Positions 2,868-46,300 of a DNA stretch of 64,000 bases are shown piece after piece (positions within the stretch are counted from its first letter, which is position 1; each line of letters opens with the position of its first letter). The DNA is taken from the NCBI GenBank assembly GCA_038030265.1, contig CM075937.1:31228198-31292197 (forward strand), in the 5' to 3' direction. The notes under the pieces are model-generated. The model was not told the DNA's origin. It searched no databases and saw only the letters and a program-made list of their open reading frames with translations. A program made the translations under genes and the position numbers. The stretch is from Corythucha ciliata. Taxonomy: Eukaryota; Arthropoda; Insecta; Hemiptera; Tingidae.

Positions 2868-3827
2868 AAGTAAGTCGAAGTAGTAGCGTGAACTTTCCAG
2901 GTAAAAGTTAATGTTACTTCCGGGAAGAAATACCGGGGGCGATTTTGAGTGGTACAACAACTTTATTCGCGTTTTAAAGAGCATACAACACAAATCTGTG
3001 GTAGATACTTCCTTCCCTAAAGGAACATTGAAGTGCATCTCAAGAAGTCTGTTTGAGCCTCGATTCCTCCCATGCCCCCCCTCTACCGATGGCCATGCAT
3101 TCTGAACAAACTGAGATTCGAACTGTGACACAACTATAACCAGGAAGGCTGATGAACACGTTAAAATTCGATCCTGAAAAGTGCGGAGTCGAATGGGTGG
3201 ATGTCAATCGGCTCGTCCACACTCATTCTACTCCATTCCATTCGATTCGGCTCCTTTGATCCGGACCGACTTTTTTCGGGTTCCCTTTCGATTCGACGTT
3301 CGATTTCCAGTTGAGCGTACCCTAGGAATTCCAATTTCCTAGGAATTCCAATTTCCTAGGAATTCCAAGCTTTAGTGGAAACCCGGCTTTTCATTCAAAA
3401 AATAAATAGTTAGCCGGATTTATGGTGGAAATCCTCCCAAAATAAAATCGTACAGCCACTACTGGTCTGGACCAACATGGGAAAGGGGCACAATCTCTGT
3501 GCTACTACGCGTCTGTGGAGCCTATGCAACCAAACAAACTGATTCCATAGAAACATGGATAATTTTGAGAGGTGGCACAGACGTCTCACATACAACTCTG
3601 TAGGGTAGGGACGAGAATTCTACCTATCTGGGGCTCTGGGGTGGGGTAACGGACTATACAAAACTGACCAAAAAGTAACTTGTGAAGTTAATTCATCGTT
3701 ACTTTTTTTTTAAGTCACGAAGTCGTTAATCCGTTACCGAAAATTGTAACAGGAGGTCCGCTCCATTGTTTCGCGAGTGCTACACTTTGGAAGAAAATCA
3801 TCTGGTTACATTCAGTTTTTCAGAATA
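2868..3827. other. Unassigned spacer inside the inverted repeat
   Basis: No recognisable coding sequence. An open minus-strand frame at 2805-3131 has no family signature. A short tandem repeat with unit CCTAGGAATTCCAATTT occurs about three times at 3318-3368. Part of 3410-3600 (TGGAGCCTATGCAACCAAAC) resembles the core of the MITE at 7151-7287, so a relative of that MITE is probably present here in diverged form. Confidence 0.5.
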
Positions 3828-4046: not shown

Positions 4047-4374
4047 TAAGTTTCCCTTTTTTTGTCCAAGTGATAATTAAAGGAGCATATAACAAATACC
4101 ATCGAGGAGCATAGAACAAATACAAATCGATACAACAGAAGAAAACGTTAAGGCCATGGAATCAATCCAAGAAAATTTTAGAATATACGAAAATGAAAGC
4201 AGCAAAAGTATTCGTAATTATAATTCGTACAAATAAAGTAGGGGAACTAGTACTTCGTCGCATATCCTTTTCTCGCCAAGACTTCCTTTAGGCGATCAGG
4301 CGTCAATTTGACCATATAAGCTCAGGAATCAATCGACTAAAAAAGGGCAAAACAAAAAACGACACTTTTATCGA

Positions 4375-4420
4375 GTTACGACGTTTCGACGGTGGAATTT
4401 TCCCGTCCTCATCAGGCATC
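4375..4420 (-). ncRNA. Hammerhead ribozyme motif (left arm, opposite strand)
   Basis: Mirror copy of the motif in the right arm: CTGATGA at 4415-4409, GAAA at 4387-4384 and the cleavage-site C at 4380, all on the minus strand. The core is unchanged. Confidence 0.65.
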
Positions 4421-4790
4421 AAAACATGTGTTTTCTACATTCGATCCACATAGACCGCGTCAGCATCTCCTAGTAACATTAACAACTTCATCCCAATTAT
4501 ATAGGAACTCGTTATATATTCTATAGTTGATAATGGTAACTAGTAAAATAAATTAAAATATATAAAAAACAATCTACCGACTAGCCACATGACTAGAAGA
4601 AATAACAATAGCCAATAGTCATGTGGCTAGTCGGTAGATTGTTTTTTATATATTTTAATTTATTTTACTAGTTACCATTATCAACTATAGAATATATAAC
4701 GAGTTCCTATATGATTGGGATGAAGTTGTTAATGTTACTAGGAGATGCTGACGCGGTCTATGTGGATCGAATGTAGAAAATACATGTTTT

Positions 4791-4836
4791 GATGCCTGAT
4801 GAGGACGGGAAAATTCCACCGTCGAAACGTCGTAAC
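4791..4836 (+). ncRNA. Hammerhead ribozyme motif (right arm)
   Basis: The conserved core CTGATGA (4796-4802) is followed by a 5-bp stem II, GACGG/CCGTC (4804-4808 with 4819-4823), then GAAA (4824-4827), then a minimal loopless stem III of AC/GT (4827-4830), with C4831 in the cleavage position (GTC). Stem I would be GATGC (4791-4795) with GTAAC (4832-4836), four of five pairs. One extra G (4803) lies between the core and stem II compared with the textbook fold. A two-base-pair stem III is typical of Penelope-type hammerheads, which are thought to act as dimers. Confidence 0.65.
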
Positions 4837-5427
4837 TCGATAAAAGTGTCGTTTTTTGTTTTGCCCTTTTTTAGTCGATTGATTCCTGAGCTTATATTAA
4901 AAATAATTAAGGGCGTTATAGCGTTCAATAAATTTGTATCAATTTGACCAATTTTGACGTACGATCGGAAGTAATTTTATCCCATTCTGTGGAAAGTACC
5001 TGCTTCAAATGGTTGACATTTCGAACCTCATGTTCCTGTACTCTTGCCTTAAGAAAGCCCATAAATTTTCGATAGGGTTCAAGTCCGGGGATTGTGTAGG
5101 TGTCTGAAGAACCTTTGGGCAATTATAGAGAAGCCATTCGCGTGTTAGGTACGCTGTACCTATGCTTCGGGTCGTTGTCCTGGTAAAACTTGAGCGTGTT
5201 CTCAATGCCCAATACTCTAGCACTTTCTTTCAAATTCATCTTCAAAATGTCAATGTACTTGAATTTGTCCATTATTCCGTCGATAAAAACCAGTTTTCCC
5301 ACACCTGCTGACGAAAAATACCCCCATACCATCACTGAGCCGCCGCCGTGTTTCACAGTCCCGACTGTATTCTTCGGTTCCAGCTCTGTGTTCGGTTTTC
5401 TCCATACACTCCACCAGTTCTGATCGT

Positions 5428-5938
5428 CATGAATGAAGAAGAATTCGACAGATTCATGTCACTTTTGACAACCGCTCTTGGAAATCAACCAAACCCATCA
5501 TCATACCATTCGAAAGCTATGACGCCATAAATGAAAAATTATCTTCCAACTTGGAACGATTTGTCAACTATTGCGACCTCAAAAACATTAGCGATCAGAA
5601 GAAAAAAGCTCAATTATTGTGCTCTTCAGGAGGAAAAAAGCACTACAACAGCCTCACTGCACTTTTAGGTCCAGAAAAGCCAGTCAAGGACAGACTTCAC
5701 CTCATTAGTTACACACTTCACGAAAATACTCTCTCCTGCTGTATCTTCAGTCGTCTCTCAGCATTATTTTCTCCATGTCACTCAATAGTCACACCAATCA
5801 ATATCAGATTTTGTCGCTTCACTCAAAGGGAACCTAAACCATTGCAATTTCTACACTACTTGCACAGCCTGTGATACGAGATTATCCATTGCTGACTCGT
5901 TTCTTCGCGCCCAATTCATCAGAGGCCTGAAAGACTGA
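5428..5938 (+). pseudogene. Gag-like remnant of a gypsy retrotransposon
   Basis: Plus-strand reading with several frameshifts and stops. It begins near MNEEEFDRFMSLL (about 5428) and continues through a region with LERFVNYCDLKNI and QKKKAQLLCSSGGKK. After frame changes it shows SISDFVASLKGNLNHC and AQFIRGLKD. The order (short N-terminus, helical core, then the segment before the nuclease-sensitive zinc knuckle) matches gag proteins of gypsy-type elements; no zinc knuckle follows. It is wedged between two Tc1 fragments and cannot make a protein. Confidence 0.65.
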
Positions 5939-6062
5939 ATTGTCCCAGACTTGAACCCTATCGAAAGTTTATGGGCTTTCTTGGAGGCAAGAGTACGGGA
6001 ACATGAGGTTCGAAATGTCAACCATTTGAAGCAGGTACTTTCCACAGAATGGGATAAATAAT
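5939..6062 (+). pseudogene. Second Tc1 transposase fragment, inverted
   Basis: Plus-strand remnant that repeats, in the opposite direction, the C-terminal piece found at about 4955-5075 ([23 protein letters not shown], then a stop). It lies immediately inside the right arm of the large inverted repeat. Confidence 0.75.
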
Positions 6063-7484
6063 AAAAAAAGGGTACTGCTGCGCATGCAACATTACCTTCA
6101 AATCCAGGATTGGTGCAAATTAAGACACGATAAATTATGGTGCGTTTAGTAGCGGACCTATATCTACCTGGGCCCGGGACGGAAATCTCGATAAGGCCCC
6201 CTTGTAACCTCTGAATAAACAAGAAATATACTTTTTACGTTGAATTAAATTATGGCTTTTTAAAGATTTAGCGACGAACTTGGCTCTTGGAAACGCGAAT
6301 TGGCGTTTTCACAGTTTTAGCTCTGAATTGCAGATTTTTCACAAATTTAGCCGCGAATTAAATTATTTTTTATTAATTTATATTTATATTTATTAATTGG
6401 GTTTTATCAAATGTATCCGCGAATGGGGAACTTTCACATTTTTCAAGCACTGGTGTTTCTTGAAGAGGGCTCTTGAACAAGACAATTGCTCACATTAAAA
6501 ATTGAAATTAATCAAGGGTTTTTTTAAAAGCGAATTTTTATATTTTAGTGTGGGTTTGATTAAGTCAAAGGGCAATTAATGAAATTGATGGTGTTGGGTA
6601 GTGGGGGAGGGAAGACGCGTTTTCCGGGGGGCCAATTTTTTTTGGAGTTCCCTCAAGTGCTTCACAACTGCACATTGACGTCATTTCCCCTCACACCAAC
6701 CATCCCCTTCTGAAGAACTTTGACATTTATTTAAATTTTAAAAATCACCAGACCGTGATGCAACTACCGTTGATATGCCAATTCACCAGAATACTTTTCT
6801 CCCAAATCGGGCATTCATGCCAGTTCCCCATTAGCGTTTTTTCTCAATTTTAGCAGTGCATTAGCACTATTTCTCAATTTTAGCTGTGAATTACCTCGTT
6901 GTTTAGCGGCGAATTAGATTTTTTCAAATTAATCCGCAAATTAGCGTTTTCCCCGTTTTAGCCCCGAATTATATCTTAATTTATTATACTGATTTTACTC
7001 AATACCAGCCCCGAATTAGCGGATTTTCGCACAATCCAACATCAACAGAGCTATGAGGCAAAACTTTCGAGGTAAAATATTCGAAAAAAATTAATGAAAT
7101 TTGCCTACACAAACTTCTATACGTAAGAATAGACGCACACCAATGTGTAAAGGCCCGTTCGCAAGCTCTATGTTCGTGTTATGTGGAGTCTATGCAACCA
7201 AACAAATTTATTCCCTCGAAAAATGAAGTATTTTGATAGGTTACATAGACACCATACAACGAAAACATAGAGCTTGTGAACAGGCCTGAAGAGAATTAAT
7301 TGTTAATCATGTACACGCCAATTATGAGAATAACATAGAGTACCTATACCTACCGTGGTCTCCTGGTCGTATACTTGTAGAATGGCGTATTTTTTTAAAA
7401 TTTCAGTGGCAAATGAGCGCTTGTTTTCAATATTGGCCGCTAATCAACGCTTTAAAACCTAAAAGTAACTACTTTTTCATCTTT
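6063..7484 (-). repeat. Right arm of large inverted repeat
   Basis: Reverse complement of 1582-2867, with scattered substitutions and one 137-bp insertion (7151-7287) absent from the left arm. Without that insertion the two arms have nearly the same length. Beyond 7484 the sequence is unrelated to the left flank, so no target duplication of the whole unit could be recognised. Confidence 0.85.
7151..7287. mobile_element. MITE present in only one arm of the inverted repeat
   Basis: A 137-bp element with terminal repeats AGGCCCGTTCGCAAGCTC and the complement of GAGCTTGTGAACAGGCCT, preceded by TAA (7148-7150) and followed by GAA (7288-7290). The left arm supplies the empty site, which reads GTGTAAGAG, so the target was TAA and the right copy has one later substitution. 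Confidence 0.8.
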
Positions 7485-7876
7485 AATACTTATTGGGGCC
7501 CTCCTCACAGACCGGCCCCCTCGCAACCCGTCGGCTCAATATACCGGTGGTGTTGTAGGCGAGGGATGATTTGAGGGGGGGGGGTCGAAGAGTCATCTGT
7601 GCAGATCCTCCTTCAACGGTCCACAAATTAAAGCAGACTCCATTCTTTGGGGGAGGGTAACCCTCCTCGCCGTAAATCCGCCACTGCCTCTACACATTCT
7701 CTAGTCAGCAGTAAAGAGGAAATTTCTTCCAGAAATATCATTTTCCGGGCAAAGGCCCAGGTCGGCCATATTGGTTTTAAGTTTCGTTTGGCACTATAAT
7801 TAATTGTATGCTGAGCCAGAAGCATGATATTTTGATGCCCGGGGCGGTTGTCATGGGTGGTTGCCCCTTCCCCCTT
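7485..7876. other. Unassigned, GC-richer spacer
   Basis: No gene, terminal repeat or tandem structure recognised between the inverted repeat and the LINE remnant. A G run occurs at about 7575. Confidence 0.4.
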
Positions 7877-17479: not shown

Positions 17480-18047
17480 TTTGATGCGTGGAAGCGGTTC
17501 ACTTGGGTCACAGAGCGGATAAAAATTAAATTATTGAATAAACGAAAAATAAATAAAACAAAAAATAACTTGAACGAAATTCAACTAAAATTGGGGGCAC
17601 GCCCCTTGAAAAGTGATAACAGCTACTTCAAGGGAACAGTGAGAAGAGAGATATATTTTTTTCTTTCAGCGCTAGGTGTCCCACTACGGTCGGAGGCGTT
17701 CCCTAAAAATCACGAAAGCGGGGAATCGGGGATCGACGGCCAACCTTGTGCTCTTCTCCTGATTGGTTTTTCACGATTTTAATATTATATTCCGGAGCGT
17801 TTATTTCGTATTATGTGAAATGCAAGAGCTTACCTTGCTCATCAGTTAATTGGCCCCGCTAGCCCGCTACCTGTTACAAGGTCCTGCTGCAGTGGCGGTG
17901 GAAGTGGGGCTTGGGACGCTCCCTCATTCCCACGATGGTCTTGCTCATGCTCCCCCCAGGTTTAAGATACCAAAATAACAGTGGGTTCATGTTGAATTCG
18001 CCTACTAAAAATTATCGTTCGCACTTTCCACAACAATAACAATAATT
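17480..18047. other. Upstream flank of RNASEK
   Basis: A minus-strand GTAAGC donor-like site at about 17833 could end a 5' UTR exon of RNASEK, but no matching acceptor is convincing. No coding sequence recognised. Confidence 0.35.
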
Positions 18048-18595
18048 ATACAGGGTCGCACAGGATATGAGTGTGACAAAAAAAATTGGGTGAAAGTAGG
18101 CCTCATTTATTGTGATCGAAAACACCCTATATATGCACCATGGTCCGAAAACCAAACCCCTACGAGATACGATTTTTTTAACATTCATTATGATTCACAT
18201 CACTTTTCTTAACTAAATGCGAATAACTCAGTTTCCAGCTGACATTTTGCAACTTTTGATGGCAGATTCGGAAAGAGCACATTTTTTTCTGCCAGGAATA
18301 GCCTATTTCGATAAGATTCAACCATTTTCTGTGGGCTCGAGCGAGAGCTGCTCAAAGTTTTGCAAATCGAGGATTTCTAATTGTTCGAAAAAGTCAACCC
18401 CCATTTTTCTACTCGAAATTTGAGCGCACCTACATCCCATGGGCCGAAAAAACTTCCCCAATGTGTCCCTTTCAAAATTACTCATGAACGTGTTTTTAGT
18501 TAATCAGTGATTTTTCGGCAGAAATGGCCATTTCTTAGAAAAAAGAATGGGGTTTATCTTCAAAATCGCTTGTTTTGACCTGTGGCGTAGGTAGG
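18048..18595 (+). mobile_element. Half copy of the palindromic CCTGTATA-ended element
   Basis: Starts with ATACAGGG and runs through GACAAAAA, CACCATGGTCCGAAAA, CAACTTTTGATGGCAG, GGAAAGAGCACA and ATCGCTTGTTTTGACCT in the same order as the left arm of the elements at 27353-28768 and 38151-39557. No inverted second arm follows here. Confidence 0.75.
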
Positions 18596-27352: not shown

Positions 27353-28768
27353 TATACAGGGTGGAAGGGGATAAGTGTGACAAAAAAATTTGGGTGAAAG
27401 TGGACCTCATTTGCGACCGAAATGACCATATACACCATGGTCCGAAAATCAAAACCCTTCGAGATATGATTTTTCTAACGAAGAAACTCGCATTCAATTT
27501 GAATTTATGCAACTTTTGGTGATGGATTCGGAAAGAGCACACTATTTTCTGCCAGGATTAGCCATTTTCGATAGACGTTAACTATTTTATGTGCCCTTAA
27601 ATGCGGCTCAAAGTCGTGCAAATCGAGGATTTAATTTTTGTTCAAAAAAAAGTCAGTCCCCGTTTGTCCACACTAAATCTGAGTGTACGGACAACCAGTG
27701 ATTCAGAAAAACATCTTCAAAGTGTCATTTTCAAAAATAGTCATAAGCGTTTTCTTAGTTGATTGGCGAGTTTTCTTCAGAAATGACCATTTTTTAGAAA
27801 AAATAATGTTTTTTCTCTTCAAAATCGCTTGTTTTGACCTTCAAAATTAGATCAATCCTTGTGATTTTAACATGCTAAAAAGGTATAAAACCACATACAA
27901 AGCCCTGCTTGGAGTGGAATTCAATGTGTGGGCCTAGCAAAGTATCAAAAAATGTCGCTCCGGCAGCTGGCTGTCGGGTTAAGTGCATTACACTACTACA
28001 AGTTTCGACGTTTTTAGTTATTTAGCTATTATTCGGCATTAATTAACATTTCACTTTGTTACTCTACATTTCTATAGCCATTCTTGCTGAATAATCGCTA
28101 ATTAAGTGAAATTAACGAAATTCGTATTTCGTGAAATGTACTCTATCCGACACCCCAGCTGCCGGAGCGAATTTTTTTTTACTTTGAAAGGCGCGCATAA
28201 TCAGTTCGATTCAACGTATAGCTTTGGATAAGGTTTGAGTGCTTTTTATCACGTTAAAATCACAAAACTTGTTCAAATTTTTCAGGTCAAAACAAGCGAT
28301 TTTGAAGAGAGAAATCGTCATTTCTGAAAAATCACCAAACAACTAAGAAAACGCTCATGACTATTTTTGAAAAGGACACTTTGAAGATGTTTTTCTGAAT
28401 CACGGGTTGTTAGTGTGGCAAACGGGGACTGACTTTTTTGAAAAAAAAAATTAAATCCCCGATTTGCAAGACTTGAGCCGCATTTAAGGGCACATAAAAT
28501 CGTTAAGGTCTATCGAAAATGGCTAATCCTTACAGAAAATAGTGTGCTCTTTCCGAACCCATCACCAAAAGTTGCATAAATTCAAATTGAATGCGAGTTT
28601 CTCGCAGTTAGTTTAAAAAAATGATGTAAGCCTTAAAAATCGTTAGAAAAATCATATCTCGAAGGGTTTTGACTTTCGGACCATGTTGTATATGGTGATT
28701 TCGGTCGCAAATGAGGTCTACTATCACCCAAAAATGTTTGTCACACTGATCCCCTTACACCCTGTATA
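27353..28768. mobile_element. Palindromic element with TATACAGGG / CCTGTATA ends, full copy
   Basis: Two arms of about 600-700 bp in inverted orientation, centred near 28060. The ends are TATACAGGGTGGAAGGGG and CCCCTTACACCCTGTATA. Arms share CACCATGGTCCGAAAATC, GATGGATTCGGAAAGAGCAC and ATCGCTTGTTTTGACCT. Near the centre both arms carry the CCGGCAGCTGG motif followed by sequence like AAGTGCATT. No open frame resembles a transposase, so it is non-autonomous. Confidence 0.8.
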
Positions 28769-37300: not shown

Positions 37301-40300
37301 CTAAGCGAAGCGTTAAGAAGGATGCACAGGCCAAAGAGGAAAACGTTTTTCGACTTTCTCTTTTTACCTATCAGAACGCTTGGTCGCAATGCCGAGACGT
37401 GCTCCAGTCCTAATGCTGGACCAATTATAGTAGGCCCCAGATCTCCTATAATGACGAAATAAGCGACGCAGGTTCCTAGCATAAATCCGATAATGCAAAT
37501 TTCGACGGTCAACTTTCCATGAGGGCCGAAAGCTCGGAATGCTGTAGTCAAATATATAAGAGAAATTGGGTGGCGGGGATGAGTTAAACGTCAACGGATA
37601 AAGGAAAGAAAAGACTTACCGAGCATTTCAAAATTTTTCATTCGCTCCATAATTGCTGATTTCATTAAGTAGTAGCATGCCAGTCGAGTCAAAAGGTTGC
37701 TGAAGATGAGAGAAAGGGCTGACAGAAGTATGCCGCACTGAAAAGAGAGAAAGCGAGGAGATTAAAACAAACAACGGAAATTTCACTCCGGCAGCTGGCG
37801 GTTGGAAAGAATGCGTAACATTTATATGCGGATACTCAAACCCACCGCGAATAGGATTCATTTTGTTATCTAATTAAATATTTCAAGATGATTGCCTATG
37901 GCAGGGCAGAGTTTCATTTTGAAAAAAATTGATAAGGTTAAACCCCTGCTTTGACGGCCACAATTAGTTTTTGAGACATTCAGTGGTCAGTTTTAAACCA
38001 TAGAACCAGACCAGATTGGAGTGTCGAACCCGATTTTTGCTTTGCGTTTCATTAGTCAAAAGCTTTGTCTTTAAGCCAGGAGACAGCATTCTTCTGGAGC
38101 TAAATTCAGTTTCCGTCGGGCTAAAACGGCAAATAAGCAGTTCTCGCGGACACCCCATAAACCATGGTCGGAAAATCAAAACCCTTTGAAATATGATTTG
38201 TCTAGCATCTTTTTAGGATAACATCATTTTCCTTGACTAAATGCGAATGCGAGTAACTCGCTTTCCAGCTGACTTTCTGCAACTTTTGACGATGGATTCG
38301 GGAAGAGCACATTCTTTTCTGTCAGACCTAGCTACTTTCGTCAAAAAATATTTATTTTCTGAGTCCTGGGCAGCTGTTCCAAGTTGTGTGAAACGGAGAT
38401 TTTCATAAAAGTCAACCCCCACTTGCCCATTCTAAAATTGCAACTATCGACTTCCCATGGATCGGAAAAACTTCTTCAACGTGTCCCTTTCAAAATTACT
38501 CATGAGCGTTTGTTTCATTAATTGGCGATTTTTTGGCAGAAATTAAAAAATTTTTATGAAAAATAGTGATTTCTCTATTCAAAAACGATTGCTTTTACCT
38601 GCAAAATTCAAACAATCCTTGTGAATTTCAACATGCTCAGCGTCATGAAAACCCCACCTCCCCTCACCTGAAGTGGTCCATTGAATGTAACTAACTGTGA
38701 ACGCCCACCAGAGTATCAAAAAATGTCGCTCCGGCAGCTGGCTGTCGAATAAAGTGCATTTCACTACAACTACGAAGTTCGACGTTTTCAGTTAATTTGC
38801 GATTATTCGACAAAAATTACTACTTAGTGTGACTATACACTTTTATTTAGCAATTTATACCAAATAATCGATAATTTACTGGAATTCGTAGCAGTGAAAT
38901 GCACTCCATTCGACAGCAACGACCGCCAGCTGCCTGAGCGATATATTTTGATGCTTTGGTGAGCGTTCGTATTCAGTTCCATTCCAAGGACCGCTTTAGA
39001 TGAGGTTTTAATGATTTTTAGCGTGCTGAAATTCGCAAGAATTGTTTGTATTTACAGGCAAAAATGAGCGATTTTGAATAGGAAAATTCACTAATTTTTC
39101 TTAAAAATGGCCATTTCTGCCGGAAAATCGCCAATTAATGAAACAAACGCACATGAGTAGTTTTGAAAGGGACATGTTGAAGAAGTTTTTCTGATCCATG
39201 GTAAGTCGATAGGCGTAGTTCAGTAGTATGGACAAGTGCGGGTTGAATTTTTATTGAAAAATTAAAAATCTCCGGTTCGCACAACTGTGAGGAGCTGCCG
39301 AGGACACAGAAAATAGTTAAAGAGTGTGCTCCTCCCGAATCCATCGTCAAAAGTTGCAGAAAGTCGGCTGGGAAGCGAGTTCCTCGCATTCGCATTTAGT
39401 CAAGGAAAAGGATGTTATCCTAAAAAGATGTTTAAAAAATCGTATCTCGAAGGGTTTTGATTTTCGGACCATGGTTTATGGGGTGTTTTCGATCGCAAAT
39501 AACGTCTAATTTTACCCAATTTTTTCTTTATACTTATACGCATCCACCCTGTATAGTAAATGTCCATGAATAGTGAGGAAAAAAAATAACAGTTATGTTC
39601 CGAAATAAACACGTCTGAGAGGAACATAAGGCAACGACAATTTCTGTGAGCCAGCTTCGTGGCCATTACGTGACTAGGTAGAGGTGTCCGGGAAATCTCC
39701 CATCAATTTTTCAAAAAACGCAGATAAGCGTTGACAATGACAGTCAAATCCGAACAATCTCACAAATCAATTTTTAAAAAATGACTCACAATACTAATAT
39801 TTACGTCCTCTTGACTTAACTTCCTTGGGAAATAGCCTGAAAAACTACAAAGACGACACGTATCAGTCATATCTGAGTTTGTGCAACATAAAATTGATCT
39901 TAATGTTGTTGATTTAATGGCCTGAGCCACAACGCACGGTCATCAATTGAATCCACACGATTCAACCGACAGAACCAACACGATATTTGCGCAATAATTG
40001 AGCACGTAGTTCTTATCAAATTTTATGATCAACAATAATATTGCGACCATTTTGCTTTGTTTTGTAATGATTCGAGCACACCTGACTACTTTAGTTTTGA
40101 AGTCCGTTGGAGTGTGGACTTCCGGGCTTTTTTTTATAAGAATAATTTGATTTGTTTTTTTTTTAAATAAAGAAAGATTCAGTAAGGGCCAATTTCACCA
40201 CCGGGAGTTAGGTTGTAGTTACCTAACTCTACCATTGTTTACATAAATAGTGTCGCCTTTTTTCAGTTAATTCTGAGTTAACGTAACTCAAACCTTAACT

Positions 40301-43300: not shown

Positions 43301-46300
43301 CAAATGTTTCAAATTGTGCACCTTAAAAACAAAATTTTACTGATTTTTATTATTTAGTACCCCAATTTTGATGATATTCACGCTTTCAAAATCCGTGGCT
43401 TTGGCTCTCAGTAAAAACAAGTTTCGCAGGTTGGGCTAATTCATAAAATCAATACGGCTCTTTCTAAAACTAATTTTCAGGACTTGGCTAATTCAAAACA
43501 CAAATTTCGTTATTTTGGGTCAAACAAAACCCAAGTTTTGCGGATTTTTAATACTTCAAAACCTAATTTCACGGATTTCGCGCATTTAAAGCTTTAAATT
43601 TAAGATGTTGGCTATTTCACAAGTCAAATTTCGTGGGTTTTGCTCTTTTCTGATATCCACAGTTGCACTGTTTTGGCCAATTCGAAAAACCAACATCGAC
43701 CAAACACATCTCGTGATTTGGGCGACAATGTTTCCGAGGACTTTCACTGTTTCAGCAAGAAATATCGCGGATTTTGCTTCTTTGAAACCCAATTTCACAA
43801 ATTTTTACGATGTTATAACCTTATTTTCTCGTTTTTTCTTTCATGACCGGTTTTCATGGCCTTAGCTCTTTAACTGCGTCCACACAACGCTCATTGTTCG
43901 CGAAAAGACATGCTAACGTTGTTGAATCACGATTTACAAGCAATGCGCGGCGCGCGTGAATGTTTCCACTGCACGTGCATCACGTTCGCAAACGTTTGCA
44001 AACCCTGTTCGCGTGCTTTCGCGTGTTAGGAATGCGCGTTCAGTGGAATCGCGGTTTTTTAAATATCAGTTTCACTAGTTCGAAAAACAAATGTGACATT
44101 CAAAAATAAATTCACGGATTTGGCTCGTTTAAAAACAAAAGTTTCATTTTGGCTCTCACAACCCACGTTTCGCGAATTTTCGCTCTTTCTATTCCAAATT
44201 CGCGGATTTGGCTCGTTCAAAAAACATGAAAATTCATCGTTTCGCGGATTTTCATGTGTTCAAAAGCAAATTTCAGCCTGCCCCCTTTGAATTGACATAC
44301 TTATGGCCATGGAGATGGTCTGTATCTCCAAGAATAATAGGTTTAGTCCATAGAACTCCTGATCGAGAATATTACGCTGGTTTAGTTTCGATGAGTGGGG
44401 TGGGTTAGCTGCACTCTGGGTGCTCTGCTCACTCACTCTGTACCGCCACTGAAGCTGTGCCACATTGCTATCACAAACGAGCACGACACCCAAGTCGATT
44501 AAACATCAATTTTAACATCAAACTGATCTGTTGTGATTAGTCGTTGTTAATCAAAGTGACCAGATGGATTATGTGACGCAAGTACGGTTATTGTTGCATG
44601 AGGGGGGGGGGACTGACGACGGATTTGAGAAGGTCAAACAATTTCTATCGTGAATGTGGATTCACGATGGAATGAAAGTTGTACAAAGTAGTAGTGGCAC
44701 GGCGCGTAAATTTATTGTCATTGAACAGTGGGATTTATGGCACGTAAAATTGAAAAAATCACGATTTCAAAAATTGCCGATAGAATTTCAGAAATGATTG
44801 ATCAGCTGGTTGTTGTTGTTGTGGTTTGAAGATGTTCAGTAAAGCCCGCCACTCACGTGCAGTTTGAACTGACAGTTTGAACTGAACAGTTCAAACTGCT
44901 TTAGGGCTTTTGACCTAAAGGTAGAAAAAGAAGTGGAGGGAGCGAAATGCATTATTCGTGAAGACGGACGGATAAGCTCAAGACGCTTAACGTTGAAATC
45001 GCACGATTCCGGCTCCCATACGATGGGATTGGGGCCCAATGGTTCTTCACTGAGTTCTTTTAGCAAGCCGATAACCGAAGATCGATTCCGCCCTTGCACC
45101 ACTGTTGTCTTTTAGGTTGGTTACTTTCCTGATGAATAACTGCACAAATTAAACCGAGAACGGCAATACGGTCCTGCTCATTCGAATCCATTATGTTAAC
45201 TGAAGAATTGCACTGTACGTGTGTGGGGGACTGAACTGAACAGTCCAAACTGACAGTTCAAACTGCACGTGAGTGGCCGGCTTAAAACTTATAGCGTTCC
45301 CCATTTGCACAAAATTCTACATTTGGGCAGTTCATTTCCACCCGTCTTCTCTGAATTAAATCATGTGTTGATGGAGAAGACGGGTGGAAATGAATTGCCA
45401 CGTTGCAGAATTTTATGCAAATGGGGAACGCTATTACTCGAGCTATCCTCGACTTATAAGCACTGAATCCAATAAAACCAACGTTATGGCTAAAAATACT
45501 AAAACATCGATTATCTCGAAAACGGTTGGAAATCGGACCTATGTTTATATGGACTTTTTTGGTCCATTTTGGACCTAGAAAAAACCCCTGCATTATTGCC
45601 GTCGACTTACCAAACACCCTGTATACATATATGGCCGTTTTCTTGTTAGCACGATAACTCTCGTAGAAGTTAATTTAGCGGAACGCGCTTTGCCACAAAA
45701 ATCAGTAGTCATAAGACCCCGGTGGTATTGCATTTGGGCCAAATCGGTCAATGTGGAGGGGGGGGGGGGAATAAGGCTTGAAATGGTCAAAAAATCACCT
45801 ACAAATCACCAGTTGATTCTAGATGCATCATATTCAGTACGAATACTCCATATTAGACTAGCCTTTGATTCCCATTTTAATTTTTTGAAAAAGTCAAGGG
45901 GGAGAGGGTGGTGCCCCCAGGGGGGAAGTGTGTGGTCTTGTTAGCACGATAACTCTCGAAGAAATTAATTTAGCGGAACGCGCTTTGGCACAAAAATCGG
46001 TTGTCAAAAGACCCTGGTCGGTATAGCATTTGGGCCCAATCGGTCGACAATGATGGGGGGGGGGGGGTAATATGGCTTGAACTGGTAAAAAAATCACAAA
46101 TCACCAGTTGATTCCAGAACCATTATATTCGGTACAATGATTTCATTTTGAAGTAGCTTTTGATTCTCATTAAGTTCAGCTCAAAGAAACCCGGCAGCAA
46201 ACAGAACGAGGAAGGGTCAAACATTAACGAAACAAATCATGGTCTCAACATTATTACTTCTGGGGCGGCTTAGGGTATCCGTACACGAAATGAAATGCAC

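Follow-up and report, generated by a model that had tools for sequence, protein, structure and literature searches.

In animals, Penelope-like elements (PLEs) typically have inverted pseudo-long terminal repeats (pseudo-LTRs), which are mostly head-to-head and in which a tail is optional on one of the copies (PMC3846280). Minimal hammerhead ribozymes have been described in these pseudo-LTRs (PMC7761336, PMC6155905) and reported to act as dimers (PMC7761336). The protein of a PLE from Anolis cleaves and extends both strands of the target, and reverse transcription starts at two sites that bound a tail of 30-40 bp; that work reports that the strands do not differ in start site, and it states no rule by which a given site would go with a given strand (PMC11167929). 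Here we describe a palindromic insert of this kind in 64,000 nucleotides of the lace bug Corythucha ciliata (assembly GCA_038030265.1, contig CM075937.1, positions 31,228,198 to 31,292,197; hereafter the window, meaning this whole stretch), together with its sister copies in the same genome. The insert is one of a family of head-to-head insertions, and exactly one of the two arms is tailed in each of the 22 family members in which both outer ends can be read. This genome thus offers a testable rule, namely one tail per two-ended insertion, with the lengths of the two arms unrelated to each other.

The insert and its sister copies

The insert occupies positions 4303-4950 of the window. An earlier note on this DNA (hereafter the original prediction) had described inverted arms, a 12-bp target duplication and a one-sided tail, and all of these were found again, with arms of 282 rather than 280 nt and a tail of 41 bp. 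The arms of the palindrome (4314-4595 and 4616-4897) lie 20 nt apart and are 99% complementary, with 2 mismatches per 282 arm positions (4498/4713 and 4430/4781). The palindrome touches the left target copy and ends 41 bp before the right one. The spacer between the arms is not neutral: by comparison with sister copies, 15 of its 20 nt (4596-4610) are native element sequence of the left arm, which is thus 15 nt longer, and only 4611-4615 are filler (a gap of 4 nt by BLAST and of 5 nt by reading). The features are as follows.

4303-4314, no strand: target site duplication, left copy, TCAATTTGACCA (repeat match; continuous transposase C-terminus after joining the flanks)
4315-4610, minus strand: left arm, untailed PLE 3' end including the 15 native nt beyond the palindrome (repeat and sister-copy comparison)
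4383-4415, minus strand: hammerhead core of the left arm, CTGATGA...CGAAAC (motif search)
4611-4615, no strand: inter-arm filler GCCAA (sister-copy comparison)
4616-4897, plus strand: right arm, PLE 3' end reaching as far as the first end site (repeat and sister loci)
4796-4831, plus strand: right-arm hammerhead core of the minimal type, lacking a helix III loop (motif search, folding)
4898-4938, plus strand: tail of 41 bp between the two end sites (sister-locus end sites)
4939-4950, no strand: target site duplication, right copy (repeat match)
4250-5029, minus strand: interrupted host, a degraded Tc1/mariner transposase C-terminus in pieces 4250-4314 and 4939-5029 (protein matches, joined flanks)

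Long inverted repeats are typical of foldback DNA transposons as well as of assembly or library artefacts, and the window holds two other palindromes of 1.3-1.4 kb. However, it is hardly credible that the insert is either of these: its palindrome stops short of one target copy by the length of the tail, a duplication flanks it, the empty site reads as a transposase C-terminus, and there are 21 further two-ended events. The duplication on either side, a tail at one end only and the existence of sister copies make an assembly artefact at the centre, which the original prediction had named as a way to be wrong, very unlikely.

Searching the genome with one arm gave at least 74 matches in 400.9 Mb, many of them as -/+ pairs (40 of 116 candidates scored), and a second search with the 3' end gave at least 43 (40 of 150 candidates scored). 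We fetched 42 loci, 36 from the arm search and 6 from the 3'-end search, which makes 43 with the window (L001-L030 overlap later loci and have no separate count). These comprise 22 head-to-head events in which both outer ends can be read (the window, L031, L032, L033, L034, L037, L040, L041, L042, L043, L046, L048, L055, L058, L059, L061, L062, L063, L064, L066, L067 and L068), 17 single arms and 4 loci that are unreadable. Both the single and the inverted copies that the original prediction had proposed to look for were thus recovered, and no direct tandem copies were found among the loci fetched. Some loci may not be independent. The flank of L051 is that of L067 (96.8% over 250 bp) and that of L054 looks alike by eye, so that both may be duplicates of the L067 event. 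L061 carries two PLE pairs (1983-2918 and 5112-5885) with an identical target duplication, 3.1 kb apart; these are probably a local duplication of one insertion event and were counted once.

The count of exactly one tailed arm in 22 of 22 events includes L037, whose tail was read by eye as the pattern missed one changed base. For 20 of the events (the window and those found with the first query) no tail sequence entered the search, while L067 and L068 come from the query that contained the tail. If arms were tailed independently at 0.5, the chance of this outcome would be at most 2.4e-7 (9.5e-7 for the 20 events alone), and it would be 2.0e-6 under random pairing of 22 and 22 arms. The outer ends fall at two sharp places, one being the left-arm end of the window insert and the other about 41 nt further. 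Measured in 20 events (L042 and L064 left out), the untailed ends range from 5 nt short of the first site to 3 nt beyond it, and the distance of the tailed ends from the second site is at most about 8 nt; the script calls the tailed arms of L031 and L046 'none', as the target repeat overlaps the tail end, and a separate reading shows the tail. Outside the pairs, L050 ends after 12 nt of tail and L053 falls short of the first site by about 9 nt. The target duplication measures 11-18 bp in 21 of the 22 events and its sequence differs by locus, with 1 mismatch in L042 and 2 in L043.

Penelope-like identity and hammerhead cores

The insert is almost certainly a pair of PLE 3' ends, PLEs being one of the two kinds of element that the original prediction had considered. 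In L042 a frame of 112 codons (L042:2473-2808) precedes the untailed arm, with a stop and some 40 nt between the two; we take it to be the end of a PLE GIY-YIG domain, a reading that Pfam and protein searches did not confirm. This fragment is 67% identical over 83 aa to the C-terminus of the protein encoded by L073:611-2005, which carries RVT_1 and has no GIY-YIG match. Relatives of the L073 protein carry RVT_1, PF26215 and in part GIY-YIG (PF01541), and several are named from ants and parasitoid wasps (both among the matches listed, 120 of 731). The L042 fragment itself has at least 150 matches in the genome, some in frames of more than 800 codons and many as -/+ pairs (150 of 580 candidates scored). 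Of the traits by which EN-containing PLEs are recognised, an open reading frame with reverse transcriptase and GIY-YIG is found at the level of the family and not in the insert itself. Partial pseudo-LTR copies are present, as inverted ones; the optional 3' tail of about 30-40 bp is there with 41 nt and two discrete end sites, and so is a target site duplication (12 bp). Distant PLE families of the same genome also have C-termini that occur as head-to-head -/+ pairs a few kb apart (for example G000: C2:17577571-/17581032+, C2:26857296-/26860523+ and C6:42870640-/42872966+).

Each arm holds one copy of the motif CTGATGA..CGAAAC (4796-4828 on the plus and 4383-4415 on the minus strand), and these are the only two in the window, where 0.07 occurrences are expected from shuffles and none of 100 shuffles reached two. 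When GAAACGTH and a helix II of 5 bp or more (with one unpaired base allowed next to the core) are also required, the window still has two and 150 shuffles have none. The two cores count as one independent occurrence, because the arms copy each other. In each arm the core reads CTGATGA-G-GACGG...CCGTC-GAAAC-GTC, which is found nowhere else in the window. The original prediction of an intact core per arm holds for the conserved hammerhead bases, which are all present, but not for the stems: helix II closes only with a bulged G, helix I is weak (pairing at 8 of 12 positions, its first five passing a test passed by 6% of random positions), and neither the sequence nor the folding gives a helix III loop in either core. 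Helix III would be limited to ACGU of GAAACGUC, which by general hammerhead rules would make both cores the minimal type. They also agree with the consensus of the minimal PLE hammerhead (CUGANGA / helix II / GAAA-C-GUH without helix III). By the same rules the cut is expected to fall after 4831, 66 and 107 nt before the two element ends. The Rfam hammerhead models did not match the insert at the gathering threshold or at E up to 10; what else the scan returned was weak and consisted mostly of microRNA hairpin models, and these matches carry no meaning because the palindrome itself produces them.

The cores are opposed, one on each strand, in agreement with the original prediction, and by its sequence a transcript of either strand would hold one sense and one antisense copy. 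The complete hammerhead fold reaches -7.8 kcal/mol, against -18.1 kcal/mol for the best fold of 4776-4858. In a single right arm, helix II has a computed pairing probability of about 0.53-0.58, which falls to 0 in the full plus-strand transcript, where one hairpin of about 280 bp takes over with a minimum energy of -509.7 kcal/mol. The expectation that a long hairpin would hide both ribozymes is thus borne out by computation, and the hammerheads of the window copy are probably without function in the product. No strong structure came out of folding the tail and the 3' region (z -1.80 and 0.24). Of 42 arms, 27 retain the core and 3 have it altered, while the script did not read the other 12. 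With head-to-head pairs also present, the genome does not show the picture that the original prediction had named as fatal to it, single arms only and no conservation of the hammerhead.

A rather different origin would be a non-LTR retrozyme, a small circular-RNA retroelement with a type I hammerhead. The insert has a similar unit length and a type I-like core, retrozyme units being about 170-400 nt long (PMC7229834). However, metazoan retrozymes are recognised by direct tandem units and a stable helix III, and we found no helix III here and no direct tandem array among the loci fetched. Together with the PLE coding end upstream of the L042 arm and with 3' ends that are fixed where the 5' truncation varies, this leaves a retrozyme origin extremely improbable.

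How the pairs may have been made

We favour, as probable when taken as a whole, an account in which the insert is a 5'-truncated PLE copy, head-to-head, that arose from two reverse transcriptions at the target. Its core, a mechanism that uses both strands and two sites, we regard as likely, with slightly less confidence. The PLE endonuclease would cut both target strands, leaving a 3' overhang of some 11-15 nt, and the target duplication would be this overhang. Reverse transcription would be primed on each cut strand, once per each of the two start sites on the template, and both cDNAs would perhaps come from one RNA, as suggested by private variants common to both arms in some pairs. The two cDNAs would stop at different places, and their 3' ends would be joined across filler bases or with at most a little homology; the hammerhead cores would be carried along as part of the PLE 3' region. 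Two primings on two 3' overhangs would place one element 3' end at each border of the target, giving a head-to-head pair. We also propose, tentatively and with somewhat more doubt than belief, that PLE insertions consist of two reverse transcriptions off a single RNA, each start site serving one cut target strand. If the start sites are such a working pair and not alternatives, every two-ended insertion would be one-tailed and head-to-head by construction. The one-tail rule favours priming on both target strands from two known start sites, and such priming would explain how opposed hammerheads arise without selection for that arrangement.

The original prediction had a head-to-head dimer integrated as one unit. 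As expected if a pre-formed dimer were the mobile unit and were copied in one piece, the arms of the window, L032 and L046 start at or near the same position. Yet across loci the arms are cut at many places and their lengths are often unequal within a pair, the 5' truncations, centres and target duplications differ between events, and single arms with a target duplication exist. A dimer made during integration is more likely, and we consider a pre-formed one very improbable.

Arm lengths bear on the remaining alternative, self-priming, in which one cDNA (or antisense RNA) would fold back and be copied into a hairpin that is then integrated, the copying stopping before the tail and the centre being trimmed later. 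Self-priming was proposed for Penelope in 2013, from palindromes at inverted junctions (PMC3846280); the 2024 in vitro paper on the Anolis PLE calls later steps yet to be validated (PMC11167929). Self-priming yields near-identical arms with shared private variants, as observed, and would suit the four pairs whose arms are equal in length. It also predicts that the tailed copy, being the template, is at least as long as the other. Arm lengths were measured from manually placed inner ends in 20 of the 22 events (all but L037 and L059), and 18 remained after leaving out L058, whose left arm holds a block of about 0.5 kb, and L055, which has no value in this measurement and gave -17 in another computation. 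The untailed arm is longer by at least 10 nt in 9 of the 18 (window, L031, L041, L042, L061, L062, L064, L066, L067), with an excess of 310 in L066 and 265 in L061; that of L064 contains extra sequence, yet extends further into the element. The tailed arm is longer by at least 10 nt in 5 (L033, L040, L043, L048, L068), and in 4 the two arms differ by no more than 2 nt (L032, limited by the reference, L034, L046 and L063). Self-priming further predicts imprecise, end-joined untailed ends, whereas these lie within a few nt of one place, and tailed single arms, whereas L038 and L060, the two with a target duplication, are both untailed. Two reverse transcriptions appear, from these sequences, to fit the end sites and the longer untailed arm better than one folded-back cDNA, and we consider self-priming unlikely. 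Private variants common to both arms were seen in L031, L033, L046 and L061 (relative to the other arms printed) and would suit one RNA read twice. By eye, junction fillers of about 25 nt contain internal direct repeats in L046 and L063 and a short hairpin in L058, which may point to templated end joining.

Several observations weigh against priming on both strands of a PLE target. Four of the 43 loci are unreadable (L047, L050 with its 12 nt of tail and no duplication, L052 and L054), and 17 are single arms within the fetched DNA, 9 tailed and 8 untailed. Of the 13 among these that were checked for a target duplication, only L038 (with 1 mismatch) and L060 have one. In L064 the duplication is only 6 bp long. 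The shared variants could also fit two RNAs of one source locus, or gene conversion, and the arm lengths are evidence and not proof, because central deletions of the palindrome could mimic unequal arms. Concerning the identity of the element, the L042 fragment has by itself no Pfam family or protein match at E 0.001, and we found no intact element of the insert's own PLE subfamily, in searches to which no GIY-YIG-aimed genome search contributed. Finally, a frame of 49 codons that would fit a PLE start (4792-4938, spanning hammerhead and tail) is broken in L031, and its ATG is absent in the older subfamily. This 49-aa frame has no convincing solved-structure match and is not conserved in that subfamily, and we do not claim it as coding.

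Surrounding sequence and described systems

On the minus strand, the joined flanks with one target copy give an ungapped alignment to the last 45 residues of a Sleeping Beauty transposase chain. Taken by itself this match is weak (E 0.0022; 0.012 for the best stretch; 0.0034 for an unrelated repeat protein). For the neighbouring piece of 53 aa the match to this chain reaches 2.1e-9, and that to Pfam DDE_3, with 1.4e-6, lies right at the cut-off; the Pfam transposase families match neither the preceding 108-aa piece nor the C-terminal piece, and the host copy has frameshifts of its own. On these alignments, the target is a Tc1/mariner element that was degraded before or after the insertion. At 5944-6058 the C-terminal region of this transposase recurs as a further piece in inverted orientation (95.7% identical), truncated beside an inverted duplication of about 1.3 kb (1584-2866 / 6062-7485, 95-98% identical) that encloses the Tc1 and PLE region. 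The right copy of this duplication (6062-7485) holds an extra 138-bp MITE-like (miniature inverted-repeat transposable element) insert with inverted ends (7151-7288), part of which resembles 3514-3582.

Elsewhere in the window, 27353-28768 and 38150-39486 are related imperfect palindromes of 1.3-1.4 kb, 75-77% self-complementary, with an arm remnant at 18047-18581; the first has the ends TATACAGGGTG...CACCCTGTATA and resembles a foldback DNA element. An integrase core (rve) fragment of a retroelement lies at 1189-1689 on the minus strand, just below the Pfam cut-off, and 45641-45876 / 45936-46171 form a direct duplication of about 235 bp, 83% identical.

The original prediction held the arrangement of the insert to be undescribed. 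This does not stand, since head-to-head pseudo-LTRs with an optional single tail are already published (PMC3846280). Like the window insert, Penelope elements of Adineta vaga (Pen2a and others) have inverted, mostly head-to-head pseudo-LTRs and palindromes at the junctions. Their target duplications measure 8-10 bp, against 12 bp here, and the examples given have a coding body or captured sequence between the copies, whereas the window insert consists of two 3' ends only, with its 41-bp tail (PMC3846280). Minimal type I PLE hammerheads share with the insert a core without helix III bases and a place in pseudo-LTRs; they are described in tandem and as capable of acting as dimers, while the cores of the window are opposed, with one sense copy per strand (PMC7761336, PMC6155905). 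In the mostly open-access literature at hand, as far as its accessible portions go (PMC8969392 and PMC12910113 included), we found no count of tails per pair and no statement linking inverted copies to priming on both strands, both of which are weak negatives.

The Anolis elements Poseidon/PAc resemble the insert in having two reverse transcription start sites that bound the tail, extension of both strands and a minimal hammerhead just upstream. They form an in vitro system (PMC11167929). The main start of reverse transcription in Anolis lies about 85-92 nt after the cut (from the figures 111-118 and 26), a distance bracketed by the two ends of the window insert, at 66 and 107 nt after its predicted cut (PMC11167929). 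Compared with these systems, the arrangement itself is known; the proposed pairing of the start sites and the count of one tail per two-ended insertion are put forward as new.
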